From Roseiarcus fermentans (GTDB taxonomy: Bacteria > Pseudomonadota > Alphaproteobacteria > Rhizobiales > Beijerinckiaceae): a stretch of 64,000 bases of DNA. Both the position numbers and the translations under genes were made by a program. Below the pieces are notes generated by a model. It worked only from the letters and a program-made list of their open reading frames with translations. It made no database searches and was not told where the DNA came from. Location of the stretch: positions 131,458 through 195,457 of the forward strand of contig NZ_QNRK01000001.1 in assembly GCF_003315135.1 (NCBI RefSeq). Direction: 5' to 3'. Positions 4,076 to 33,168 of this stretch are shown here, one piece after another; the first letter of the stretch is position 1; every line of letters starts with the position of its first letter.

Positions 4076-5659
4076 TCAGTGCGCGGCCGGCGCTGCGCCG
4101 CCGAGCTTGACGTTGCGCAGGGTCAAGGCGAGCGGCACGGTCAGGAGCGCAAGGATCATAAGGACCCAGAAGACGTCCATGTAAGCCAGGAACGACGCCT
4201 GCAGCGCCACCTCCCGGCCGATCCAGGCGATGGCGCGTTGCTGCGCCTCGCTCGCTGGACCGCCCTGCGCCTGGAAAAACTTCGTCGCCTGTTGCAGCGC
4301 GTCCCGGTACTGCGCGCTCGCGGGGATCGCGTTCTCGGCCAGCCGGGCCTGATGAAATTGCTCACGATGCGCCACCACGTTCGAGGCGATCGAGACGCCG
4401 ATCGAACCCCCCGTGTTGCGCGCCGCATTGATCAGGGCTGACGCCATGTCGATCCGGTCGGGCGGGACGCCATCGTAGGACGCGGCGATGATGGGGATGA
4501 AGATCAGCGGCAATCCGATGCCGAGATAGATTCTCGAGCGAGCGAAGAACCAGAAGTTCAAGTCTCCGTATACGTCTGTCAACTCGTACATCGAGGCCGC
4601 GATGACGAGGGCGCCGATCATGATCAGGTACTTGGGCTGCACCTTGTTCGAGATGGAGCCGATCAAGAACATCATGAACATCGTGACGATCCCGCCGGGC
4701 GAGAGCGCGAGCCCGGCCCAGGTGGCCGTGTAGCCGTAGTCGGTCTGCAACAGCAGCGGCAGGAACTGGGTGGTCGCATAGAGGATCGCGCCGGTCGCGC
4801 CCATCACGAGGAACGCGGCGCCGAACTGACGCGAGGCCACCATGCGCACGTCGATCATGGGGTCTTTCCTGCGCGTCTCCCATGGGATCAAGAGCGCCAA
4901 AGCGGCCGCCGTGACCACTGTCATGGAACGGATGAAGGACGAGCCGAACCAGTCGTCCTCGAGGCCCCGGTCGAGCACGACCTCGAGCGCTCCGAGGAAC
5001 GTGGCGATCAGCAGGAAGCCGATGGCGTCGAAGCGAGCGGCCGACCGCGCTTCCGCGGCGTCCGCCGGCAAAACGGCGGCGATCGCCGCCATCGTGGCGA
5101 GGCCGACGGGAAAGTTGATCAGGAAGCACCAGCGCCACGAGACGTTGTCGGCCAGCCAACCGCCGAGCGTCGGCCCGACCACCGGCCCCACCACCACCGC
5201 AATTCCGAAGAGCGCGAACGCCTGGCCGCGCTTGGCGGGCGGGAAAGCGTCGGCGAGAATCGACTGCGAGACCGGCACCATGCCGCCTCCCGCCAGGCCC
5301 TGCATGATCCGGAACAGGAGCAGGGCGTCGAGATTCCAGGCTTGTGCGCAAAGCAGGGAACTCAGCGTGAACAGTCCGAGGCAGGCGATGAAGAAGGTCT
5401 TGCGCCCGAGCCGCCGGGCCAGGAACGGGCTCGCCGTCAGGCTCACGGCGTTGGCGACCAGATAGGTCGTCACGACCCAGGACGCCTCGTCCGTGCTGAC
5501 CCCCATGCCGCCGGCGATATAGGGCAGGACCACGTTGGCGACGGTGGTGTCGAGCACCTCCATGAAGGCGGCGAGCGCGACCAGGAAGGCGATCAACCAC
5601 GGGCTGGCCTGCGCAGGGTTCGCCGAGGCGGCCGGGCGGGTTTCCGCCGCCGCGCTCAC
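4076..5659 (-). CDS. DHA2-family MFS drug efflux permease (EmrB/QacA type)
   Basis: A 527-residue inner-membrane antiporter with about 14 hydrophobic segments. It has the first-helix pattern LAAFMEVLDTTVANVVLP, the loop LARRLGRKTFF and the motif-C region PTLGGWLADNVSWRWCF. It would pump toxic compounds with the adjacent membrane-fusion protein. The GTG at 5659 was chosen because it overlaps the stop of the upstream hlyD-type gene (GTGA) and begins just before the first helix. The frame stays open much further upstream, but only as an antisense-like shadow inside the neighbour. No outer-membrane TolC partner is in the window. Confidence 0.9.
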   Translation of the reverse strand: MSAAAETRPAASANPAQASPWLIAFLVALAAFMEVLDTTVANVVLPYIAGGMGVSTDEASWVVTTYLVANAVSLTASPFLARRLGRKTFFIACLGLFTLSSLLCAQAWNLDALLLFRIMQGLAGGGMVPVSQSILADAFPPAKRGQAFALFGIAVVVGPVVGPTLGGWLADNVSWRWCFLINFPVGLATMAAIAAVLPADAAEARSAARFDAIGFLLIATFLGALEVVLDRGLEDDWFGSSFIRSMTVVTAAALALLIPWETRRKDPMIDVRMVASRQFGAAFLVMGATGAILYATTQFLPLLLQTDYGYTATWAGLALSPGGIVTMFMMFLIGSISNKVQPKYLIMIGALVIAASMYELTDVYGDLNFWFFARSRIYLGIGLPLIFIPIIAASYDGVPPDRIDMASALINAARNTGGSIGVSIASNVVAHREQFHQARLAENAIPASAQYRDALQQATKFFQAQGGPASEAQQRAIAWIGREVALQASFLAYMDVFWVLMILALLTVPLALTLRNVKLGGAAPAAH

Positions 5660-6990
5660 CCCCCGCCTCCGATCCAGCCGGGAAGGCGGGCCCTGAGCTT
5701 TTCCCACAGGGACGGCGCGGCGTTGGTCCGCACGGTCGGCGTGACCGACATGCCGGGGCCGAGCGTCATGTCGGCTGGCGGATTGTCCATGACGATCTTG
5801 ACCGGCACGCGTTGGACGATCTTGACGTAATTGCCCGTCGCGTTCTCGGCGGGCAGCAGCGAGAACGCGACGCCCGACCCCGGCTGGACGCTCGCGACAT
5901 GGCCGCGGACAGTCCGCTCCGGATAGGCGTCGATGTGCATCGTGACGGGCTGCCCCGGCCGCATGGCGTCGAGCTGCGTCTCCTTGAAGTTCGCGGTGAC
6001 CCAGATGTCGTCGGGGACGAACATCGTGAGGGCCGTTCCGGTGGTCGCGTATTCGCCGACCGACGCGGAGAGGTTGGCGATCTTTCCCGCCTGGGCCGCC
6101 GTGACGATCGTGTAGGAGAGATTGAGCGCGGCCTGGTCTCGCTGGGCTTCCGCCTCCGAGAGGTTGGCCTCGGCGCTCTTGCGCTGCGCCCTGAGCGCGC
6201 CGACCTGCCGTTGGGCCGCGGCGAGCGACGCCTTGGCCGTCAAGACGGCAGCCTGCTGCTGGCGAAGCCCCGAGCTGTACTGCTGGGCGTTCTGCACCGT
6301 GCCCGAGCCGGTCCGAACCAGATCCTGGTAGCGGGCGGCCTGCTCCTGCGCGAACACCAGCGCCGCCTGGGCCGACTCGACCTGCGCATTGGCCTCGCCG
6401 ACCTGCGCCTCCTGCACCGCGATCTGCGCGTCGATATTGCTGATATTGTCGTTGGCCGCGGCGACCTGCGCGTCCGCCAGCTCCAGCGCGACCCGATAAT
6501 TGCGCTCGTCGATGCGCGCGATGACGCCGCCCCGGTCGACGTGCTGGTTGTCGGTTACCGCTACGGCCGTGACGTAGCCCGCGACTTGCGGCGCGACCGC
6601 GAACTGCCGCGCGGCGATGAAGGCGTCGTCGGTCGATTCGAAGTGGGACGTGTGGTCCCAATAGAGGTACCCGGCGGGCGCGCCGACGATCAGGACGAGC
6701 GCTCCCGCCGTCAGCATCAGGCGCCGGCGAGACCGAGGCTTGCCGGACGAGGCGTCCCCGTCTCCGTTCCGCTTCTCTCCCTCCCTCCGAGGGCGCTCGC
6801 CCTCGCCCGCCGGACGCGCTCCGTCCCGTCGCGGCGCATTCTCGGCGGGCCTCTCCGGGGGGACGGCCGTCCGCTCGCCGGCAGGCTGCGGTATCCGGGG
6901 CGGCGCGTCGGACGAACCGCCGCTCTGCCGCGCCCGGCCGGGCCCCTCCGTCACCGCCGAGTCCGAATCCGTTCGCCTGTCGTCCAGCAC
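5656..6990 (-). CDS. HlyD/EmrA-family membrane fusion protein
   Basis: A 444-residue periplasmic adaptor for the DHA2 permease that follows with a 4-bp overlap. The first 90 or so residues are a proline- and charge-rich cytoplasmic tail. One membrane helix follows (LMLTAGALVLIVGAPAGYLY), then the split biotinyl-lipoyl-like domain beginning FESTDDAFIAARQFAVAP and a long Ala/Gln-rich coiled coil. The start is a GTG at 6990 with a weak ribosome site. A ten-codon frame with a good site lies just upstream, which may matter for regulation. The tail is longer than in typical EmrA. Confidence 0.88.
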   Translation of the reverse strand: MLDDRRTDSDSAVTEGPGRARQSGGSSDAPPRIPQPAGERTAVPPERPAENAPRRDGARPAGEGERPRREGEKRNGDGDASSGKPRSRRRLMLTAGALVLIVGAPAGYLYWDHTSHFESTDDAFIAARQFAVAPQVAGYVTAVAVTDNQHVDRGGVIARIDERNYRVALELADAQVAAANDNISNIDAQIAVQEAQVGEANAQVESAQAALVFAQEQAARYQDLVRTGSGTVQNAQQYSSGLRQQQAAVLTAKASLAAAQRQVGALRAQRKSAEANLSEAEAQRDQAALNLSYTIVTAAQAGKIANLSASVGEYATTGTALTMFVPDDIWVTANFKETQLDAMRPGQPVTMHIDAYPERTVRGHVASVQPGSGVAFSLLPAENATGNYVKIVQRVPVKIVMDNPPADMTLGPGMSVTPTVRTNAAPSLWEKLRARLPGWIGGGG

Positions 6991-22605: not shown

Positions 22606-23505
22606 TCAGCCGGCTGTGCGGGCCATCGCGAGATGCGAACGCGGAGCGCGGCCGAGGGCGCGCGCGATGAACAGGGAGGTCTCGATCAGCCTGTCCAGTG
22701 AGACGCCGGTTTCGACGCCCATCCCCTGCAGCATGTAGACGACGTCTTCGGTCGCAACATTGCCGGTGGCGCCCTTGGCGTAGGGGCAACCCCCGAGGCC
22801 GCCGATCGAGGAATCGACGACGGATACGCCCCGCTCGAGGCAGGCGAAGATGTTGGCGAGCGCCTGTCCATAGGTGTCGTGGAAATGAACCGCGACGTGC
22901 TGGAGCGGGATGCTGGCGGACACCGCATCGACCAAGCGGCGCGCGGCGAGCGGCGTGCCGACGCCGATGGTGTCGCCCAGCGAGATCTCGTAGCATCCCA
23001 TTGCGGTCAGTTCGCCGGCGACGCGCACGACGTCCGCCACGGCGACGTCCCCCTGATAAGGGCAGCCGAGCACGCAGGAGACGTAGCCGCGCACGCGGAT
23101 CCCGTTCGCCAGCGCCCGTTCCAGGACGGGCGCGAAACGGGCGAGGCTTTCCTCGACGCTGCAATTGATGTTCTTGCGCGAGAAGGCCTGCGAGGCCGCC
23201 GCGAACACGGCGATCTCGTCCGCGCCGGCGGCGAGCGCCGCGTCGAGGCCCTTCTCATTGGGCACGAGCACCGGATAGGCGACGCCCGGACGCCGCTTCA
23301 GCCGTCGGACGAGGTCGGCCGTGTCGGTCATCTGGGGAACCCATCGGGGCGACACGAAGCTGCCCGCCTCGATCGTCCGCAGGCCCGCCTCGCCGAGCCG
23401 GTCGATCAGCTCGAGCCGGATCCCGGTCGGGACCTGAGCCGCCTCGTTCTGCAGGCCGTCGCGCGGACCGACCTCGACGATCCGGACTCGGGATGGAAAC
23501 GCCAT
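22606..23505 (-). CDS. mvaB: hydroxymethylglutaryl-CoA lyase
   Basis: A 299-residue enzyme cleaving HMG-CoA to acetyl-CoA and acetoacetate. The start VEVGPRDGLQNEA and the metal site HFHDTYGQALAN are clear. The catalytic-Cys loop GGLGGCPYAKGATGNVATED is complete. It serves leucine breakdown in many bacteria. Here it is the last catabolic gene of the leftward operon that begins with class II HMG-CoA reductase, as in the Pseudomonas mevalonii mvaAB system, so mevalonate breakdown is the better reading. The gap to the upstream ABC ATPase gene is 56 bp. Confidence 0.92.
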   Translation of the reverse strand: MAFPSRVRIVEVGPRDGLQNEAAQVPTGIRLELIDRLGEAGLRTIEAGSFVSPRWVPQMTDTADLVRRLKRRPGVAYPVLVPNEKGLDAALAAGADEIAVFAAASQAFSRKNINCSVEESLARFAPVLERALANGIRVRGYVSCVLGCPYQGDVAVADVVRVAGELTAMGCYEISLGDTIGVGTPLAARRLVDAVSASIPLQHVAVHFHDTYGQALANIFACLERGVSVVDSSIGGLGGCPYAKGATGNVATEDVVYMLQGMGVETGVSLDRLIETSLFIARALGRAPRSHLAMARTAG

Positions 23506-23561
23506 GGCTCGGCTCTCGGGATGGTCGGGGAGACGACAACGCGGGGTCGGCGACCTCCGAA

Positions 23562-25061
23562 TCAGTGCACCGCCGCGTACATGATCTTTTCCTCGGTCGC
23601 TTCGTCGACCGTCATTTCCTCGACGATGCGCCCTTGCCGCGCCACCAGAATGCGATCCGAGAGGCTGAGGATCTCCGGCAGGTACGAGGAGATCACCACC
23701 ACCGCCGCCCCCGCGTCGGCGAGGCTCTGAATCATGTGATGGATCTCGGCGATCGCGCCGACGTCGACCCCGCGCGTCGGCTCGTCGAAAATGATCAGCG
23801 AGGGGTTCTGAATAAGCGACTTGGCGACGACGATCTTCTGCTGGTTGCCGCCCGACAGCTCGATCACCTTGGCGTTCTTGTCGATCGCGCGGACATTCAA
23901 CGCGTCCAGCCAGCGCTCCGACTGCCGTCGCGCCTCGGCCATGGTGACGTAAGCCACCGGATTGGCCCCCATCGCCAGCCTGCCGAGGAAGACGTTCTGA
24001 GCCATTCGCATGCTTTCGAAGAGACCGTCGAGTTTGCGGTCCTCGGTCACGTAGGCCACGCCGCGCTCGACCGCCTGGCGCGGAACCCGAAATCGAACCG
24101 GCTCGCCGCGCAGCTTGATCCGGCCGCCATGCCAGAAGTCCCGTTTCAGCACTCCGGCGGCGATCTTCATCATTTCGGTGCGTCCGGCCCCGACGAGGCC
24201 GAACATCCCGGTGATCTGGCCGGCGTAGACCGACAGGGTCGCGCCCCGCACCGCCTTCCCCATCGTGACGTTTTCGAGCGCGAGCACCTTTTCGCCGCGC
24301 TTGCGCACCCGTCTGCGCGCGGTCTCCCCGCCGTACAGCTGGGCGGTGAGCTGTCGTCCGACCATCGCCTGAACGATCCGTTCGCGGGTGAAGTTTTTGG
24401 CGTCGTCGGCCACGATCAGCTGCCCGTCGCGCAGCACGGCGATGCGGTCGGCGATCGTGAGCGCCTCTTCGAGCGCGTGGGAGATGAAGATGATCGAGGC
24501 GTCCTGCTTCTTCAGGGTCCCGATGAGCGCGAAGAAATGCTGCTTCTCTTCCGGCGTCAGCGTGGCGGTCGGCTCGTCGAAGATGAAGATCCGCGCCTTG
24601 TGGTGCACGGCGCGGGCGATCTCGACCATCTGCTTTTTCGCGGCGCCGAGGCTCGACACCAGCGCGGTCGGTTCGACGGGAAAGTTCAAGCTCTGCAGGT
24701 GCTGCTGAGCCGCGATGTTGACGCCGCGTAGCCGGTTGAAGAAATTCTCGGCGCCGAGGAAGATGTTCTGCGCCACCGTCATCGACGGAATGAGGTTCGT
24801 CTCCTGAAACACCATCGCGACGCCGCAGCGCAGCGCCTCGGCGGGCGAAGCGAACTGGACCGGCGCGCCTTCGAGCCGGAGTTCGCCCGAGGTCAACCGA
24901 TAGAGTCCGGCGAGGACCTTGGTCAGCGTCGACTTGCCGGCGCCGTTCTCGCCGACCAGCGCGAGCACCTCGCCCTTTCGCAACGTGAGATTGACGTTCC
25001 GGAACGCCGGATTGCCGCGGAACGCCTTGGTCGCATCCCTGAATTCGACGACGTCAGTCAT
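23562..25061 (-). CDS. ribose-type ABC importer ATPase (two nucleotide-binding domains)
   Basis: A 499-residue RbsA/MglA-like ATPase. The first domain has Walker A VGENGAGKST and Walker B IFIFDEPTATLT with a degenerate signature (SSLGAAKKQMVE). The second lacks a normal Walker A (FGLVGAGRTEM) but has LSGGNQQK and LIIFDEPTRGVD. That asymmetry is normal for CUT2 importers. It powers uptake through the two permeases encoded upstream. The ATG at 25061 overlaps the end of the lactonase gene by 8 bp. The longer frame to 25115 is Arg-rich and not family-like. Confidence 0.92.
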   Translation of the reverse strand: MTDVVEFRDATKAFRGNPAFRNVNLTLRKGEVLALVGENGAGKSTLTKVLAGLYRLTSGELRLEGAPVQFASPAEALRCGVAMVFQETNLIPSMTVAQNIFLGAENFFNRLRGVNIAAQQHLQSLNFPVEPTALVSSLGAAKKQMVEIARAVHHKARIFIFDEPTATLTPEEKQHFFALIGTLKKQDASIIFISHALEEALTIADRIAVLRDGQLIVADDAKNFTRERIVQAMVGRQLTAQLYGGETARRRVRKRGEKVLALENVTMGKAVRGATLSVYAGQITGMFGLVGAGRTEMMKIAAGVLKRDFWHGGRIKLRGEPVRFRVPRQAVERGVAYVTEDRKLDGLFESMRMAQNVFLGRLAMGANPVAYVTMAEARRQSERWLDALNVRAIDKNAKVIELSGGNQQKIVVAKSLIQNPSLIIFDEPTRGVDVGAIAEIHHMIQSLADAGAAVVVISSYLPEILSLSDRILVARQGRIVEEMTVDEATEEKIMYAAVH

Positions 25062-26157
25062 GGGCGGCCTCGAACGAAGCGACGCGCGCGACGACGCCCG
25101 CGCCGCGCGACGCAATCAGAAGGTCCTGGTTCCATTCGGCGATCGAGGCGACGCCGTGCAGCGAGCCGTCGGCCCGGCTGTGCAGGCTGCCGATCGGCGC
25201 GCCGTCCGCGTCGCACCGCGCCACGAGCCCGTAGGATCGCGACGGCGCCCAGGGCTTGACGATCCCCATCTGACGAACGGACCCCTGCTGCAAGGGTTGG
25301 TCGGGCGCATCGGAGGAGCGATAATCGGGACCGATCCAGTCGTCCTCGTCGATCGTGGCGATCATGTCGCGACGAAAATCGTGCTCGACGAGCAGGAATT
25401 CGAACAATTGCCGGCGGGGCGCGAACAGGGCCAGCCAGAATCCGCCGTCCGACGCCGCCGCCATGCGCGCCGGGTAGGCCGGCAGGTCGTCGAGGAGCGT
25501 CTCAGGCGCGCGGTCCGTCGAGATTCGCAAGCGAAGGATCCGGTGGCGCCAGCTCTCCGAGACGAGGACCGTCCCGTTCCGCTGGACGAGCGCGCCGTAG
25601 GGAAACGCCAGATCCGCGGCGATCGTCCTGACGGCGCCTTTGCCGAGCTCGACGACGACGACGGCTCCGGAGGCGCCGTTCTCCATGAGATCGCGCTTCC
25701 AGTCGACGGCTCGATTGCGGGTGGACCCGACGCAGACGAGCACGCGCTCGTCATCGAGCGCCGCGCCCGCGGTCATGCAGGACGACAAGGGGGTCGGAAC
25801 CGGAACGAAGCTCCAGGCGCTGTCCGCCGTCCGCACATGCAGCCCTTCGGACTCGACCCCGACGATCAGGCGGCCGTTCGGGGCGCCCGCGAGAAAGGCG
25901 ACCCGCGATCCGAACCGGCGCGCCTCGACGGCGACGAAGGCGCCGCCCCGGTGTTCGATGCGATGGAGGCAGCGACCGGCGGAGCAATAGGCTGCCCCGC
26001 CGGCCGTCACGACGGAGTCGACATCCGGGAGGATGAACAGTCGCTCCGCCTGTTCGAGAAGGGCGTTCGGCTTGAATGGGCCGTCCATCGGCGGAACCGA
26101 GACGAATGTGTCGCGGCCGATCAGGGCGCGTCCGGCGGCTCTGAGCATGGCGAACAT
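25054..26157 (-). CDS. SMP-30/strictosidine synthase-like beta-propeller (putative lactonase)
   Basis: A 367-residue cytoplasmic protein without signal peptide, made of repeated propeller blades (AFPYGALVQRNGTVLVSESW, then ARMAAASDGGFWLAL). The spacing of these motifs matches the six-bladed strictosidine-synthase/APMAP-type lactonase group. It is a divergent paralogue of the propeller fused to the permease just upstream: the ESWRHRILRL stretch parallels AETWACRINRY there. The start overlaps the fusion stop (TGATG). In this operon a role opening a lactone such as mevalonolactone is inferred from context only. Confidence 0.75.
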   Translation of the reverse strand: MFAMLRAAGRALIGRDTFVSVPPMDGPFKPNALLEQAERLFILPDVDSVVTAGGAAYCSAGRCLHRIEHRGGAFVAVEARRFGSRVAFLAGAPNGRLIVGVESEGLHVRTADSAWSFVPVPTPLSSCMTAGAALDDERVLVCVGSTRNRAVDWKRDLMENGASGAVVVVELGKGAVRTIAADLAFPYGALVQRNGTVLVSESWRHRILRLRISTDRAPETLLDDLPAYPARMAAASDGGFWLALFAPRRQLFEFLLVEHDFRRDMIATIDEDDWIGPDYRSSDAPDQPLQQGSVRQMGIVKPWAPSRSYGLVARCDADGAPIGSLHSRADGSLHGVASIAEWNQDLLIASRGAGVVARVASFEAAHD

Positions 26158-28262
26158 CAGCGTCGCCCCCCGTCGTCATGGGCCGTGGTCCAGGTCGGAT
26201 CGGCGCCGTCGATCCTCACCCGCCCGACCCGGTTGTTGGAGACCCCGCCGAGGTAGAGCCAGCCCTTGTGCTCGCAGGTCGAGGTGATCGAGGCGTGTTT
26301 CTCGCCGCGCCGATCCCACAGCACGTCCAGGATCTCGCCCTGTTCGGAGACGCGGACGACGCAGCCGCGGTTGATGTTGGGAAACAGCCACTCGTCCGGC
26401 GCCAGCCGCTTGGCGACCCGCCTGCGGAAGCCGGGCTTGCGCATCGCCAGATCGAAGGTCTTGGTGCGCATGCCGAGCAGCGCGATCCAGAAGGTCCCGT
26501 CCGAGCCGCGGTTGAGGTTGTCGGGATAGCCCGGCAGGCCGTCGATGAAGACCTCGCGGACGCCCGCCTTCGGCCCGTCGAACCAGTAGCGGTTGATGCG
26601 GCAGGCCCAGGTCTCCGCGAACAGGAGCGACTGCCCGTCGCGACACATCGCGATCCCGTTGGGAAACTTGAGGCCGCGCAACACCGTTCGCGTCCGCCCG
26701 GTCTTCGGATCGTGACAGATCAGGCGTCCGTTCCCGCGCCCCTCGAGCCCGTCCACCGCCCATTCCGACATTTCGTAGCGGATGGTCGCCTCGCTGAAGA
26801 AAATGCGGCCATCGGGCGCAATATCGAGGTCGTCGGGAAGACGGAGGCGCGAGTCGTCGATGATCGAGAACCAGCTCCGGTTGGTCTCGTCGGTGACCCT
26901 GGCGACCTCGCCGTTCGGGCTGACCTTGTAGACGCCCATGCCGCCGACGCAGGTGTAGAGATCGCCGTCGGGCGCGAACACGAGCCCGAGCGGATGGCCG
27001 CCGATCCGGGCGAACACTTCGCTGCGGCGATAGTCCGGCGCGAAGAACTTGACGATCGTACCGTGCCGTGTCCCGGTGTAGAGATTGTCCTGCCCGTCGA
27101 GGACGACGTCTTCCGGTCCCTCGACTTCGCCCAGGCCGATCGGCTCGGCCGCGCCGAGGCGGTCGTTCATCGCGAAACGCTCGGGCGCCGCCGTGCGCTC
27201 GGGCAAGCCGAGGTAGGTCGGCGACACGTAGACCTTCGCCAGCACCTTGCCGCGGTTCTTGATCCATTTCGCATTGAAGAGCGTGGCCGCGACCAGGATC
27301 ACGCCGAGAATGAGCTGGTTCAGCGAGCCGGGCAGCCCGAGCCGGATCAGCCCGCTGGTCAGGATCAGCACGAACAGCGAACCGATGATCGCGTTTCCGA
27401 CCGAGCCGCGCCCGCCGCCCAAGGTCACGCCGCCGAGCAGAACGGCGGTCAGAATGGCGATCTCGAGTCCGATTCCGGTGTCGGCGCCGGTGCTCCCGAG
27501 GCGCGCCGAAAACAGGAAGGCCGCCGTCGCGACCAGAAGGCCGGACGCGACATAGGCGAAGAAGACGGTCAGCTTGACGTTGATGCCGGCGTTGTAGGCC
27601 GACCGACGCGCGCCTCCGACCGCCCTGAGCCGCCAGCCCGGCTTCAGCCGCGACAGGCCGATGTGGATGACGATGGCGAGCACGGCGAAAATGACGAAGG
27701 AAACCGGAACGCCGACGACATCGCCGAATCCGATCGTGTCCCAGAGCGGCGACTGAGGCGAACTTCCCACGATCCCGCTCGCGAGCCGCGGAAACACGAT
27801 GTCGTAGAGGGCGCGAAAGATCACCAGCGTAACGAGCGTCGTGATGAACGCGCGCAGGCGCAAATAGCCGACCAGCGCGCCGTTGAGGGCGCCGCACGCC
27901 AGGCCCGTCGCCGCGGTCGCTGCGGCCGCGACGCCGATCGGCAGTCCGAGGACGTTCATCGACGTCAGCGCCGCGAGCACGCACAGCGCAAACATCGAAC
28001 CGACCGAAAGGTCGATGCCGCCGGACAGCATCACGATCGTCATTGCGATCGCGACGAGACCGAACTCCGCGACCTGCCGCGACAGGTCCGAGAGACTCCC
28101 GGCGGAGAAATAGCCGGGAATCGCGATTTGCATGGAGACGACGACCAGGACGAGCGCCAGCGCCGGGATGGCGCTGTCGATCCAGCTCTTGGACAGGATC
28201 TCGCCGACGATGCGATCCGGAACCAGCCGGTATCGCAGACGTATGAACGCGTCGGAGGTCAT
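26157..28262 (-). CDS. ABC importer permease fused to beta-propeller lactonase domain
   Basis: A 701-residue two-domain protein. Residues 20-330 are a complete RbsC-type permease with the CUT2 signature LSGGIDLSVGSM and the late helix GGVTLGGGRGSVGNA. After a linker, residues 375-690 form a six-bladed SMP-30/strictosidine synthase-like propeller with metal-ligand motifs GPEDVVLDG, PDDLDIAPDG, FPNGIAMCRDG and GYPDNLNRGSDG. The permease C-terminus is expected in the cytoplasm, so the enzyme would sit at the inner mouth of the channel. The reading frame is continuous with no frameshift. The hydrolase may act on the solute as it enters. Confidence 0.88.
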   Translation of the reverse strand: MTSDAFIRLRYRLVPDRIVGEILSKSWIDSAIPALALVLVVVSMQIAIPGYFSAGSLSDLSRQVAEFGLVAIAMTIVMLSGGIDLSVGSMFALCVLAALTSMNVLGLPIGVAAAATAATGLACGALNGALVGYLRLRAFITTLVTLVIFRALYDIVFPRLASGIVGSSPQSPLWDTIGFGDVVGVPVSFVIFAVLAIVIHIGLSRLKPGWRLRAVGGARRSAYNAGINVKLTVFFAYVASGLLVATAAFLFSARLGSTGADTGIGLEIAILTAVLLGGVTLGGGRGSVGNAIIGSLFVLILTSGLIRLGLPGSLNQLILGVILVAATLFNAKWIKNRGKVLAKVYVSPTYLGLPERTAAPERFAMNDRLGAAEPIGLGEVEGPEDVVLDGQDNLYTGTRHGTIVKFFAPDYRRSEVFARIGGHPLGLVFAPDGDLYTCVGGMGVYKVSPNGEVARVTDETNRSWFSIIDDSRLRLPDDLDIAPDGRIFFSEATIRYEMSEWAVDGLEGRGNGRLICHDPKTGRTRTVLRGLKFPNGIAMCRDGQSLLFAETWACRINRYWFDGPKAGVREVFIDGLPGYPDNLNRGSDGTFWIALLGMRTKTFDLAMRKPGFRRRVAKRLAPDEWLFPNINRGCVVRVSEQGEILDVLWDRRGEKHASITSTCEHKGWLYLGGVSNNRVGRVRIDGADPTWTTAHDDGGRR

Positions 28263-28274
28263 CGTCTCACGCCG

Positions 28275-29291
28275 TCACTTGATGTCGTCGAGGGTCCAGC
28301 AATTGCGCTGGTTCACGTTGTCTTTGGTAATCAGCGTCAGCGGGTTGAAGTACATGGTCTTCGTTTCGCCGGCTTTCGACTTCGACAGGAGCAGGCGCGC
28401 GATCTCCTGATTGAGGAGGTCGCCCTGCAGAGGGACGTTGTAGCTGATGTAGAGGCTGAAGTTGCCGTTGGTGACGTTCTCGCAGCCGACGCGGTTGCCG
28501 CCGCCGCTGGTGACGAGGAAGACCTGGTCGCTCTTGCCCGCCGCCTTGATCGCGGAGGCGGTGCCGGTGTCCTGGTTGTCCCAGATGCCGATGCCGGCGC
28601 ACAGATCGGGGTGCTGCTGAAGCACCGTCTCCATGATCGAGCGCGCCTTTTCGGCGTTGTACTCGGTGGCCTGCTGCGACACGACCTGAATCTCCGGATG
28701 CTTCTTCAGAACCCGGTAGATTCCGTCGAGCTGGAAGACGTCCGAGGCCGCCGTCGGGACGCCGGTGTCGATGGCGACCTTGGTCGACTTGCCCTTGCCC
28801 GCGCCGCACTTGTCGACGACGGCGAGGGCGGCCTGTTCGCCGATCTCGGTCCAGTCGGCGCCGACGTAGGAATCGGTCTGGGTGTTGGATTCGAGATTGA
28901 TCTGCACCACCTTGATGCCGGCCGCCTGGGCCTGCGCGAGCAGACGCGCATAGGACTGGATGTCCGGGTTGTGCGCCACGATCAGGTCCGGCTTCTCGGA
29001 GATGAGCGACTGCAGCGCGCGCGTTCCGGCGTCGGTGCTCCAGGCCGGGTCGCGGATCTGGAAATCGTAGTTCAGGCGCTTGGCCTGATTGCGCATGCGG
29101 GCCGCCCAGCCTTCCGTCAGGTCGAAGCCCATCGACAGGGGCAGGAAGACGACCTTCTTGCCTTCGAGACCGGAATGGAACGCCGCGCTGCGCGGGTTCT
29201 CCAGGCCCTTGTCCTGAGCCGACGCGCCGGTCAGCCCGACCGCCATCGCCAGGGCGGTCGCCGCCGCGAGCGCCAATTGACCGAGTTTCAT
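28275..29291 (-). CDS. periplasmic sugar-type substrate-binding protein (RbsB-like)
   Basis: A 338-residue type I binding protein with a signal peptide (LALAAATALAMAVGLTGASA). The mature region has the two-lobe pattern: KKVVFLPLSMGFDLTEGW in the first strand/helix, KPDLIVAHNPD, and VKVVQINLESN at the hinge. It is more divergent than true ribose binders (DIWDNQDTGTASA-type loop near residue 240), so the ligand is probably not ribose. It delivers substrate to the two permeases encoded on either side. Confidence 0.88.
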   Translation of the reverse strand: MKLGQLALAAATALAMAVGLTGASAQDKGLENPRSAAFHSGLEGKKVVFLPLSMGFDLTEGWAARMRNQAKRLNYDFQIRDPAWSTDAGTRALQSLISEKPDLIVAHNPDIQSYARLLAQAQAAGIKVVQINLESNTQTDSYVGADWTEIGEQAALAVVDKCGAGKGKSTKVAIDTGVPTAASDVFQLDGIYRVLKKHPEIQVVSQQATEYNAEKARSIMETVLQQHPDLCAGIGIWDNQDTGTASAIKAAGKSDQVFLVTSGGGNRVGCENVTNGNFSLYISYNVPLQGDLLNQEIARLLLSKSKAGETKTMYFNPLTLITKDNVNQRNCWTLDDIK

Positions 29292-29328
29292 GACTATCCT
29301 CCCTTGTGTGGATTCCTGGTCCGCGCGC

Positions 29329-30330
29329 CTAAAGGTCGCCTTGCTGCGACGTTTGCTCGTCGCGCGGATTGACGAGCGAATCGAAAACGATGGCGAGAAG
29401 CAGAACCACGCCCTTGACCAGGTTCTGAATGGTGAAGGGCACGTCGAGAATCGTCATGCCGTTGAGGAGAATGCCGACGAAGATCGTGCCGAGGACGACG
29501 TTGCGGATGCGCCCGGCGCCGCCGTTGAGCCCGATTCCGCCGAGCACGATCACGAGCAGGATGTCGTAGATCATGGTCGAATTGTAGAGCCGGGCGTTGA
29601 TGGCCGAGGCGGAGGAAGCGAGGATCAGACCGGCGACGTAGGCGACGAGGGCGCTCAGCGCGTAGTGCGCGATGACCATCGCGCGCATCGGTACGCCGGT
29701 GGTGCGCGCCGTGTTCGGGTTGCTGCCCATGGCGTAGGTCTGCCAGCCGAAGCGCGTCGAGGTGAGCGCGAAATGCGCCAGGGCGCACAGGACTGCGAAG
29801 GCGATCACGGTGACGGGAACGCCGAGGACGCGCGACTTTCCGATGAAATCGAACCAGTCGTTTCCCGGCGGAACGTTCTGCATCTCGAGGGTGAAGAAGA
29901 ACGTGCGGCCGAGCCCGTAGATGATCGACCCCGCCGCCAGCGTGGCGAAGATCGGCGGAACGTCGCCATAGGCGATCAGGGCGCCGATCAGAATGCCGGC
30001 GACGAGGGCGAACGCGCCGCCGATGACCAGCGCTTCCGCCAGCGGATAGCCGGTCCGCGCGATCACGAAGGCCCAGGAGACCGACACCACCATGGTGGCG
30101 ATCATGGCGACGTCGATGCCGCGTCCGATGACCACGATGGCCATGCCGAGCGCCAGGATGCCGAGGACCGAGACGCTTCGAACCAGCGAAACCAGATTGC
30201 CGGGCGTGGCGAACCCGGGCAGCGCCAGCGCGAAAACGACGAAGGCCGTCGCCGCGAGGACGAAGACGATCCCCTCCTGGCTGCCGAGCAGGCGGCTGGC
30301 GAGACGGCGCGATCGCGGCGTGTTCGTCAT
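29329..30330 (-). CDS. second ABC importer permease (RbsC-like)
   Basis: A 333-residue, roughly ten-helix CUT2 permease. The signature GRGIDVAMIATM replaces the usual GGIDLSVG, and GGIGLNGGAGRIRNVVLG matches the GGxxxxGGxG late motif. With the propeller-fused permease it should form a heterodimeric channel. It follows mvaA by 12 bp, so the two are tightly linked. Confidence 0.9.
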   Translation of the reverse strand: MTNTPRSRRLASRLLGSQEGIVFVLAATAFVVFALALPGFATPGNLVSLVRSVSVLGILALGMAIVVIGRGIDVAMIATMVVSVSWAFVIARTGYPLAEALVIGGAFALVAGILIGALIAYGDVPPIFATLAAGSIIYGLGRTFFFTLEMQNVPPGNDWFDFIGKSRVLGVPVTVIAFAVLCALAHFALTSTRFGWQTYAMGSNPNTARTTGVPMRAMVIAHYALSALVAYVAGLILASSASAINARLYNSTMIYDILLVIVLGGIGLNGGAGRIRNVVLGTIFVGILLNGMTILDVPFTIQNLVKGVVLLLAIVFDSLVNPRDEQTSQQGDL

Positions 30331-30342
30331 GACGGAGCCTCG

Positions 30343-31659
30343 TCAGTTCACGAGTTGCGCCAGAACGGCTTTCGCGCGGTCGACGCTCACGTCGCGCGCG
30401 TCGGCCATTTCCCTGGCGACGACCTCGATCTGATCGCCGACGGCGCCGGCCACAATGGCGATGTTGCGCGCGTGCAGCGCCATATGGCCACGCTGAATGC
30501 CTTCGGTCGCGAGCGCTCTCAGCGCCGCCATGTTCTGGGCGAGACCGACGGCGACGGCGATCTCGGCGAGCTCGCTGGCGCTGCGAACGCCGAGCAGCGC
30601 GAGCGCGGCGCGCGCCGCCGGATGCGTCTTGGTCGCGCCGCCGACGAGACCGAGCGGCATCGGCATTTCCAGGGTGCCGACGAGACGGCCCTCGCCATCG
30701 AGCTCCCAGCGCGACAGCGACGAATAGCGGCCCGAACGGCAGGCCCAGGCATGGGCGCCGGCCTCGACGGCCCGCCAGTCGTTGCCGGTCGCAACCACCA
30801 GAGGGTCGACGCCGTTCATGATCCCCTTGTTGTGGGTCGCGGCCCGATACGGATCCACGAGCGCCAGCGCGCACGCTTCGACGATACCCGACGCCATGCG
30901 CTCTCCGGAGAATTCGCTGGTCTTGAGCGAGTCGGGCGTGAGCCTGACGGTCGCGCGCGCCAGGCGAAGGTCGGCCAGATTGGAGAGGATGCGCAATCGC
31001 ACCGTCCCGCCGGTAATGGCCTCGATCGTCGGCGCGATCGTCTCCGCCATCGTGTTGACCGTATTGGCCCCCATCGCGTCGCGGACGTCGACGAGCAGGT
31101 GCAGCACCACCATCGGACCGACGGCGGTGTCTTCGAAGACGTGGACCTCGATGTCCTTGCAGCCGCCGCCGAGGCCGATCAGCACCTTGTCCTTCGCGTT
31201 CGCCTCCTCCAGGATCTGCGCCTTGTGGGCGAGCAGCCTGGCGCGCGCGCCGAACGGGTCGCGGGTCGACAGGACCTGCACCTGCGCGCGCATGATCGGC
31301 GCGCTGCTCGACGTCTCGAAGCCTCCGCAGGTCCGCGCGATCCGCGCCATGTAGGAGGCGCCGGCGACGATCGACGGCTCTTCGACGGCCATCGGAATCA
31401 GATAGTCGCGGCCGTTGACGGTGAAGTTCGTGGCGACGCCGAGCGGCAGGTCGAACCGTCCGATGACGTTCTCGATCATGCCGTTGGCGAGGCGCAGCGG
31501 AAGCGAGCCGGCCCCTCTGAGCGCTGCGCGCGCCGCCTGGTCGAGCCCGGCGGCGGCGGCGACCTGTTCGAGCCGCGCCTCCGGTTCGAGATCGCGGAAT
31601 CCCTCCAGTCGCGACGAATAGGGTTGACCGGGCGCTGGGCGCTTGGTGTCGGGCGACAG
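30343..31659 (-). CDS. mvaA: class II (degradative) HMG-CoA reductase, apparent CTG start
   Basis: Catabolic direction: mevalonate + CoA + 2 NAD+ to HMG-CoA + 2 NADH. Class II residues are present: Glu in VEEPS (about 94), Lys in HNKGIMNG (about 278), Asp in TGNDWR (about 294) and His in GHMALHARN. The first ATG is at 31479 inside the conserved [11 protein letters not shown]. Upstream the frame still encodes family sequence ([19 protein letters not shown]) for about 60 codons with no ATG, GTG or TTG before the stop. A CTG at 31659, five bases after AAGGGAGG, gives 438 residues; the P. mevalonii enzyme has 428. It heads the leftward operon. Confidence 0.93.
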
Positions 31660-31727
31660 GGCGACCTCCCTTGGGCTTTGGAATGGCTTGTGAGCGATTC
31701 AATCCTATGACAGTGTCCCTTCATCAA

Positions 31728-31778
31728 GGTACGGATCAAGGAAACAGTTATATATCGTACCCTGGTTTTCCTGGGTAC
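31728..31778. promoter_or_regulatory. GGTAC-type repeats between mvaA and the MocR gene
   Basis: GGTACG (31728-31733), CGTACC (31756-31761) and GGGTAC (31773-31778) lie in the divergent gap. The last two form an imperfect 22-bp palindrome GTACCC-N10-GGGTAC. An AT-rich TATATA (31749-31754) between them could be a -10 element for either direction. This arrangement suits binding by the adjacent MocR-type regulator, which is inference. Confidence 0.5.
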
Positions 31779-31797
31779 AGATGGCGGGAGATGTCGG

Positions 31798-33168
31798 TTG
31801 GGGACCCGGACGGATGCGGTGGTCGACGGTCTGCGGAAACGGATCGAGGCCGGCGCGATCAAGGTCGGCGCCAAGGCGCCGTCGATACGCCAGGCGGCGG
31901 CGGACTTCGGCGTCTCGAAAAACACCGTCATCGAAGCCTACGACCGACTGGTCGCCGCCGGCCTCCTGAGCGCGCGTCAGGGCTCGGGCTTCGTCGTCAC
32001 CGAGCCGCCGAGCGACGTGCAGTCGGCGCGGCCGAGCCACGTTGCGGAAGCGGTCGACATCGCGACGCTGCTGCGCGCCCAGCTCGAAGAGAGTTTCTCG
32101 GTCCGTGTCGGCGACGGCCGGCCGCCGCCGTCGTGGACGGAAGAACCCGAAGTGCGCAGGCGGCTGGGCGTCTACAGTTCGAGCCGCTCCGCCAGCGAAG
32201 ACGGCTATGGCTCGGCGATGGGACTCCCCGAGCTGCGCGACAAGATCGCCCGCTCGTTCCTGGCGCGCGAGGTTCGCAGCGGCCCGCAGAACGTGCTGCT
32301 GACGTTCGGCGGCAATCATGCGCTCGACCTGATCATCCGCCACTTCCTGTCGCCGGGCGACACGGCGTTCGTCGACGACCCGGGCTATTACCCGCTGTTC
32401 GCCAAGCTCACGCTGGCGCAGGCGCGCATCGTCGGCGTTCCGCGCCGGGAGTACGGCCCCGACCTCGAGGTTCTGGCGCGCAAGCTCGACGAGGAGCGCC
32501 CCAAGATCTTCTTCACCCAGTCGATCTCGCAAAATCCGACCGCGAGCTCCACGTCGCTCGCCACCGCCCACGCCCTCCTGAACGTCGTTTCGAGACGGCA
32601 GATCCTGCTGGTTCAGGACGAGCCCTTCATCGACCTGCCGAACTGCAAGGGGGTCGATCTCGCGACGCTCGACCAGCTTCAGAACGTCGTCACCGTCGGC
32701 ACCTTCGCCAAGACGCTGTCGGCGAACCTGCGCTGCGGCTACGTCCTTGGGCGGGCCGACCTCATCGCCTCCCTGGCGGAGCTGAAGATGCTCACCACCG
32801 TCAACAGTTCCGGCCACATCGAGCGGATGGTGCACGGCCTGCTGGACGACGGGCGCTATCGCAAGCACCTGAACCGCCTGGCGCAGCGCATCGAACGGGC
32901 GACGGACAACGTCATGCAGAACTTCAGCCGGCGCAGGCTCGAGGTGTTCGCCCAGCCGACCGGCGGCTACTATCTGTTCCTCAAGTTTCCCAGCGGCGTC
33001 GACGACATCGCATACGCGCGAACGGCCGCGCGCGACGGCCTGTTCATCGCGCCGGGCAGCGTGTTCAGCGTCGACAGAGCCAGCACCGCGGCGGGCATGC
33101 GGGTGAACGTCGCGCGCGCCGACGATCCGCGCTTCTACGACTATCTCAGCCGCACCCTCCGGGCGTGA
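31798..33168 (+). CDS. MocR-type transcription regulator (GntR domain + aminotransferase fold)
   Basis: A 456-residue regulator. Residues 1-70 are a GntR winged helix (AKAPSIRQAAADFGVSKNTV, then LSARQGSGFVV). The rest is a class I aminotransferase-like domain that keeps the PLP lysine (VGTFAKTLSANLRCGY) and the Asp of VQDEPFIDL. It starts at a TTG (31798) seven bases after GGGAG. It is divergent from mvaA, so it probably controls the mevalonate operon and may sense an aldehyde, amine or PLP adduct. An effector cannot be read from the sequence. Confidence 0.88.
   Translation: MGTRTDAVVDGLRKRIEAGAIKVGAKAPSIRQAAADFGVSKNTVIEAYDRLVAAGLLSARQGSGFVVTEPPSDVQSARPSHVAEAVDIATLLRAQLEESFSVRVGDGRPPPSWTEEPEVRRRLGVYSSSRSASEDGYGSAMGLPELRDKIARSFLAREVRSGPQNVLLTFGGNHALDLIIRHFLSPGDTAFVDDPGYYPLFAKLTLAQARIVGVPRREYGPDLEVLARKLDEERPKIFFTQSISQNPTASSTSLATAHALLNVVSRRQILLVQDEPFIDLPNCKGVDLATLDQLQNVVTVGTFAKTLSANLRCGYVLGRADLIASLAELKMLTTVNSSGHIERMVHGLLDDGRYRKHLNRLAQRIERATDNVMQNFSRRRLEVFAQPTGGYYLFLKFPSGVDDIAYARTAARDGLFIAPGSVFSVDRASTAAGMRVNVARADDPRFYDYLSRTLRA

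Follow-up and report, generated by a model that had tools for sequence, protein, structure and literature searches.

A candidate operon of Roseiarcus fermentans for importing and breaking down mevalonate or its lactone, with a putative propeller-bearing ABC importer

The stretch of Roseiarcus fermentans DNA analysed here, referred to as the window, comprises 64,000 nucleotides of contig NZ_QNRK01000001.1, and its positions 22606-33168 hold a tight leftward run of genes, together with a divergent regulator gene, that is probably devoted to the catabolism of external mevalonate or its lactone. The run, on the minus strand, begins with mvaA (30343..31659), encoding a class II (degradative) 3-hydroxy-3-methylglutaryl-coenzyme A (HMG-CoA) reductase of 438 residues if a probable CTG start at 31659 is used. 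It continues with genes for an RbsC-type permease (permease 1; 29329..30330, BPD_transp_2), an RbsB-type periplasmic binding protein (28275..29291, Peripla_BP_4), a 701-residue protein in which a second permease is joined to a propeller of the strictosidine-synthase-like or lactonase type (26157..28262), a second propeller protein (25054..26157), and an RbsA-type double ATPase (23562..25061, with an ATG start, two ABC_tran stretches, and an alternative in-frame TTG at 25115), and it closes with mvaB, encoding HMG-CoA lyase (22606..23505). From mvaA to mvaB, successive genes are separated by 12, 37, 12, -1, -8, and 56 bp, and they are predicted to be co-transcribed. On the plus strand lies a gene for a MocR-type regulator, in which a domain search found a GntR domain and an aminotransferase domain (31798..33168); the mocR-mvaA intergenic region (31660..31797) contains a degenerate copy of an inverted repeat shared with relatives. 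A ClC channel gene follows 93 bp past mvaB, and a search of the window for transfer RNA genes returned none. Domain and curated family matches bear out the gene content and divergent MocR gene described in a first-pass annotation of this DNA, as recomputed distances do its tight spacing (12 bp, overlaps of 1 and 8 bp, 56 bp). The two permeases and two propellers that it listed are likewise present, except that the first propeller is not a separate protein but part of one with permease 2. Judged from sequence, the arrangement is more than chance, because it was found again in other genera.

In Pseudomonas mevalonii, MvaA converts mevalonate to HMG-CoA, which MvaB cleaves to acetyl-CoA and acetoacetate. 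The 378-residue ATG form of MvaA passed the NCBIfam model "HMG-CoA reductase, degradative" (TIGR00532; 390 bits, cut-off 260), and the CTG form matched the solved P. mevalonii reductase 1qax with 621 bits. MvaB, encoded in the same gene run directly after the ATPase, passed the HMG-CoA lyase model NF004283 (449 bits, cut-off 246) and matched the solved lyases 2cw6 and 2ftp with 381 and 380 bits, respectively. The ATG-start reading frame of mvaA (from 31479) lacks the conserved N-terminus, and no ATG, GTG, or TTG codon that would restore it was found; the frame is open up to the CTG at 31659, which is preceded by AAGGGAGG, and mvaA of the relatives L034 and L163 has a TTG start after a similar ribosome-binding site. 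Translation of MvaA probably starts at this CTG, after a strong ribosome-binding site. A gene caller restricted to ATG, GTG, and TTG loses 60 MvaA residues.

The transport proteins belong to families of the carbohydrate uptake transporter 2 (CUT2) group of ATP-binding cassette (ABC) importers, with an RbsA-type double ATPase, RbsC-type permeases, and an RbsB-type binding protein. The top NCBIfam matches of the ATPase are sugar importers, none of them over its own cut-off among the 25 best matches listed, and no sugar equivalog of NCBIfam was passed by the transport proteins among the matches listed. The start of the binding protein resembles a signal peptide by eye. When this protein was aligned by eye with 2ioy, the ribose contacts proved to be replaced, including both arginines that pin ribose; these changes would fit a neutral ligand other than ribose. 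Cysteines 162, 231, 270, and 331 of the binding protein are invariant in 26 aligned family members, which suggests two disulfides.

The fusion protein contains BPD_transp_2 at residues 58-326, followed by SSL_N, Str_synth, and SGL domains. The folds nearest to its AlphaFold model (pLDDT, the predicted local distance difference test, 80.5; pTM, the predicted template modeling score, 0.58) are those of TGW6, strictosidine synthase, the RPA3624 lactonase of R. palustris, and Drp35, with paraoxonase also among them, and the nearest solved sequence relative of the propeller is TGW6 (8kg3). Five propeller residues, E384, D478, N535, D581, and N582, are the same in all 26 sequences compared, and D477 is conserved in 25 of the 26; the five stand at the metal-ligand places of SMP-30 and PON1, as matched by motif. 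Alignments place Gly at the N535 and D581 positions in strictosidine synthases, and Asn and Asp in TGW6. The fused propeller thus keeps the residues that bind metal in the central tunnel of SGL/SSL hydrolases (Glu, Asn/Asp, Asn, Asp). Permease 2 has an even number of membrane helices in the model, by our own count, and a Lys/Arg-rich linker precedes the propeller; together these features suggest that the propeller faces the cytoplasm.

The second propeller departs from this pattern. It had no Pfam or NCBIfam match at E 0.001, and its AlphaFold model (pLDDT 88.3, pTM 0.87) predicts a propeller of the strictosidine-synthase/Drp35/paraoxonase type, with TGW6 also among the fold matches. At the two ligand places counted, which were matched by motif, the Asn equivalent to N535 occurs in 3 of 28 sequences and the Asp equivalent to D581 in none of the 28, so that this protein is probably non-catalytic. 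The pairing of two active lactonases was rejected on the loss of these two metal-site residues, and the earlier proposal that the propellers open the lactone survives as a possibility for the fused one, which retains its metal-site residues.

The cassette of permease 1, binding protein, permease 2-propeller fusion, second propeller, and ATPase keeps its order in nearly all relatives; the exceptions are L162, which is devoid of both propellers, and L141, which has an additional internal reading frame. Among 297 genomes of the order, 41 gave matches to the fusion protein (E ≤ 1e-40, some partial matches counted); further matches were found in 11 of 398 genomes across the phylum (E ≤ 1e-100) and in 16 plasmid records that include Shinella HZN7, where mocR-mvaA stands in front, as well as Paraburkholderia and Pantoea. 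Across this wider family, the cassette mostly stands next to catabolic genes of other kinds, and its neighbors encode short-chain dehydrogenases, aldehyde dehydrogenases, AMP-ligases, acyl-CoA dehydrogenases, MmgE/PrpD proteins, and others. The R. fermentans genome itself contains three further permease-propeller cassettes apart from mvaA, on contigs C3, C26, and C8 (L141, L160, and L161). At three loci a second, different cassette copy stands close behind the first (L176 from 15707 onward, L177 from 15959 onward, and L188 from 17290 onward), as if cassettes expand in tandem.

The association of the window's own clade with mvaA is tighter than that of the family at large. A scan of genome contigs with a close-clade profile gave 62 loci, and MvaA is present at 15 of them (L173-L184, L225, L226, and L234), all of which are close relatives with binding proteins at 79-88% identity. 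These loci were found in Mesorhizobium, Mangrovicella, Martelella, Shinella, Flavimaribacter, Methylocapsa, and Pacificispira, as well as in Dongia, Tepidamorphus, Rhizobiaceae, and alphaproteobacterial metagenome-assembled genomes. MvaA was not seen at the remaining 47; one of these, L223, is a close relative (binding protein 87%) on a 3-kb contig, and seven of the other 46 (L204, L209, L211, L213, L220, L227, and L233) lie on contigs cut in or near the cassette, with their neighbors partly hidden. When the window, L034, and L163 are included, the clade counts 19 loci, 18 of them with MvaA, and the contig of the nineteenth, L223, is too short to reveal the gene; L123 and L175, apparently one contig with the same length and match places, were counted once, and L163 is nearly a copy of L182. 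In a quick tree built from 84 fused proteins, the window clade formed 16 rows, with a support of 100 in the Shimodaira-Hasegawa-like approximate likelihood ratio test (SH-aLRT); all 16 rows are mvaA-linked, and none of 500 label shuffles on the tree needed as few changes. The mvaA-linked clade spans at least seven families and two gene orders, the alternative order (cassette, then MocR, MvaA, and MvaB) being found in L183 and L184, and this changed order argues for selection on the linkage rather than inertia. Outside the window clade, the cassette of L035 also stands behind mvaA. The refuting condition named in the first-pass annotation, a lack of mvaA/mvaB in homologous operons, gave a mixed but informative outcome: the close clade has mvaA wherever the contig allowed it to be seen, and the more distant relatives (binding protein at most ~62% identical) lack it, save L035 as the one exception seen. 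In L225 (Methylocapsa sp. S129), a gene at 5348-6658 that reads as a branched-chain-type binding protein lies between mvaA and the ABC cassette.

A complementary view came from loci selected by mvaA rather than by the cassette. In the order, 32 of 297 genomes have mvaA at MvaA E ≤ 1e-60, and importers were typed by tblastn within 7.5 kb of the gene; the 32 loci consist of stretches around mvaA from 30 genomes, the window, and the cassette contig of G224, and some of the stretches are cut short by the end of a contig. At 24 of the 32, the window included, there is a MocR relative. The importer beside this core varies: sixteen loci have DctPQM of the tripartite ATP-independent periplasmic (TRAP) type, eight a Peripla_BP_6 relative, four the ABC-propeller cassette (the window, L034, L035, and L123), and one TctA, while L054 has a TctC-like binding protein by our own reading and L040 and L061 matched no query. 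Across the phylum, MvaA was found in 15 of 398 genomes at E ≤ 1e-100, nine of them additional. At these nine loci the importers were TctA (six) and a Peripla_BP_6 relative (one), one locus matched none of the queries, one gave no more than a weak match to DctM (33%), next to MvaB and a CoA-transferase, and none showed the cassette. One TRAP-locus DctP that was compared is closest to 2zzv, kin of the lactate-binding TTHA0766. At six loci (L033, L035, and L050-L053) a family III CoA-transferase gene and one for an enoyl-CoA hydratase lie close to mvaA, possibly an alternative route that shares mevalonate or HMG-CoA.

The R. fermentans genome bears on both the importer and the direction of the pathway. 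The DctP of mevalonate loci had no match in it at 1e-10, and its identity is at most 31% in the other three cassette genomes and 70-100% in four TRAP-locus genomes, the query's own included. No mevalonate kinase above the curated cut-off was found in the genome; two GHMP-family proteins are encoded, of which the one on C30 is a weak kinase match of 46 bits (cut-off 163). The absence of a mevalonate kinase over the cut-off and of a match to the mevalonate-locus DctP fits catabolism. On another contig the genome encodes one more HMG-CoA reductase, which differs in type from MvaA (C4:147874-148980, L001), although no mevalonate kinase passes the cut-off.

Regulatory sequence provides a further link between loci with different importers. 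The mocR-mvaA gap of all 26 chosen relatives, 15 of the cassette type and 11 with other transporters, contains the operator-like inverted repeat GGTACAGTT-N16/17-AACTGTACC, with 14 or more matches out of 18. In 200 letter shuffles per relative, the repeat score was reached by no shuffle for 20 of the 26 and by one or two for the other six, where the consensus was derived from the same 26 sequences and some of these are near-copies. The core GGTAC-N24-GTACC, defined after the relatives, occurs in the mocR-mvaA gap of the window as its only copy in the 64 kb. As the repeat is common to cassette-type and other-transporter loci, one and the same regulator, responding to one signal, probably controls the cassette loci and the TRAP loci alike.

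A precedent for a lactonase-type propeller in mevalonate metabolism is Drp35 of Staphylococcus aureus, which acts on mevalonolactone at 478 umol/min/mg and on the other lactones tested at least 100-fold more slowly, and whose gene adjoins mevalonate genes in some staphylococci (PMC6052127). The fused propeller is not a sequence ortholog of Drp35: it scores 22.4 bits by profile, as compared with 293 bits for a protein of the TRAP locus L041, and the R. fermentans genome has no Drp35-like match at 1e-30. Drp35-like genes follow the TRAP genes in two mocR-mvaA loci, L041 (13792-14820) and L047 (5123-6151), and L058 has a weak match (24%). The start of the L041/L047 protein resembles a signal peptide, making it a candidate periplasmic mevalonolactonase. 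By analogy, these loci suggest a parallel in which an outside lactonase serves an acid importer in TRAP loci, and a lactone importer is joined to an inside lactonase in the window.

These observations lead to the following model, in which the operon, with good probability, is a catabolic route for external mevalonate or its lactone as substrate; this much is shared in part with the alternative of free-mevalonate uptake considered below. The importer most likely takes mevalonate in its ring form, mevalonolactone, which is sugar-like because it is an uncharged ring of six members that bears a hydroxyl. The RbsB-type protein would bind mevalonolactone or mevalonate, and the two permeases with the RbsA-type ATPase would import it. 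The propeller on permease 2 would then open the lactone on the cytoplasmic side and trap it as mevalonate, a step to which we give roughly even chances, with the second propeller as a non-catalytic partner. MvaA would oxidize mevalonate to HMG-CoA, MvaB would split this into acetyl-CoA and acetoacetate, and MocR would govern the divergent promoter. The proposal of the first-pass annotation that these genes take up and degrade mevalonate or its lactone is thus well supported by the clade linkage, the importer swap, and the searches of the genome itself, with the reservation that distant cassettes mostly occur without mvaA.

Several findings weigh against this model. Cassettes of the wider family act in other pathways, so that the cassette alone is no proof of mevalonate. 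The tree was a quick one with long branches and suggests two origins of the link between mvaA and the cassette; two independent origins are not claimed, because a single clade was not rejected (p = 0.161 in the approximately unbiased test, p-AU). MvaB was not seen in the stretches of L163, L181, and L182. The window copy of the inverted repeat is degenerate (13 of 18 matches, a score reached by 7 of 200 shuffles), a scan found no sigma-70-type promoter, and terminator-like sites are at chance level (5 observed, 5.5 expected). Lastly, a search of 30 of the 32 mvaA genomes gave Drp35-like matches at 1e-30 in only 2, which belong to a single genus.

The alternative that survives best, though we consider it unlikely, is that the importer takes free mevalonate and that the fused propeller is a cytoplasmic gate or sensor of the permease rather than an enzyme for this substrate. 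The scarcity of propeller lactonases elsewhere speaks for it: tblastn with the fused propeller found one outside the cassette in only 2 of 31 loci, L041 and L047, the majority of the TRAP loci built on this core have none in view, and the Drp35-like query adds just the weak match of L058. The second propeller, moreover, is degenerate and yet retained in nearly all cassettes seen, L162 having neither. A pure sensor, however, would have no need of metal-site residues, which the fused propeller keeps unchanged in unrelated gene contexts, and the binding protein, in the by-eye alignment, has lost the two ribose-pinning arginines with no carboxylate-holding replacement seen. Less probable still is import of an ester or other conjugate from which the propeller would free mevalonate, an idea suggested by the nearest solved relative, TGW6, a hydrolase of a sugar ester. 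No further conjugate-processing gene common to the clade was noticed, although no systematic search was made, and Drp35 is a direct precedent for the lactone (PMC6052127). Chance placement beside mvaA of a cassette that takes up some unrelated sugar or lactone would explain the 46 of 62 loci that show no MvaA (7 of the 46 on cut contigs, L223 set aside), but is very improbable against mvaA linkage in every clade row, across the families and both gene orders and unmatched by any shuffle; a sugar operon standing beside mvaA by chance was rejected on this clade linkage. HMG-CoA reductases are biosynthetic in many bacteria, but a MvaA that supplies isoprenoid synthesis has very little probability here and was rejected, since the degradative model was passed, the partner gene encodes a lyase, no mevalonate kinase exceeds its cut-off in the genome, and a different HMG-CoA reductase is encoded elsewhere in it.

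Mevalonolactone uptake by the window's cassette may also be one case of something broader. We tentatively propose, as an idea with rather less than even odds, that the cassette represents an ABC importer family with a built-in hydrolase, in which a catalytic lactonase-type propeller fused to the inner face of one permease, paired with a dead partner propeller, draws in neutral lactones by opening them on arrival; the window would be the mevalonolactone member, and others would handle further lactones or esters. The open-access literature searched, which leaves out most subscription journals, described no importer/lactonase system for mevalonate and no ABC permease joined to an SMP-30, strictosidine-synthase, or gluconolactonase propeller, and held nothing relevant, by title, on mevalonate with a TRAP transporter. 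The earlier statement that a sugar-type ABC importer with lactonases is not known to be described in a mevalonate pathway agrees with this search, and the importer seems new for a pathway that is itself known. If correct, the model names an importer for mevalonate in bacteria that feed on it, shows one catabolic core exchanging unrelated types of transporter, and supplies a first substrate for testing the whole cassette family. It also points to an ABC permease with its own hydrolase-like domain in many Alphaproteobacteria and in Paraburkholderia and Pantoea plasmids.

Among known systems, the CUT2 sugar importers RbsABC, YtfQRT, and AraFGH belong to the same families as all four transport proteins of the operon, which differs from them in the permease-propeller fusion, the second propeller, the lost ribose contacts, and the absence of a passing sugar equivalog among those listed. 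The mvaAB operon of P. mevalonii likewise joins a class II degradative MvaA to MvaB, whereas in the window a five-gene ABC cassette with propellers separates mvaA from mvaB and a MocR gene is divergent. The TRAP-type mvaA loci of the order (16 of 32) share the MocR-MvaA(-MvaB) core in most cases, and the inverted repeat in the seven scanned, but use a DctPQM importer, with a Drp35-like gene in 2 of the 16. Strictosidine synthase-like proteins, represented by TGW6, match the fused propeller best in both sequence and fold; this propeller is, in contrast, bacterial and joined to an ABC permease. With S. aureus Drp35 (PMC6052127), the window shares a lactonase-type propeller tied to mevalonate metabolism; its own propeller is strictosidine-synthase-like, distantly related, and tethered to a permease.

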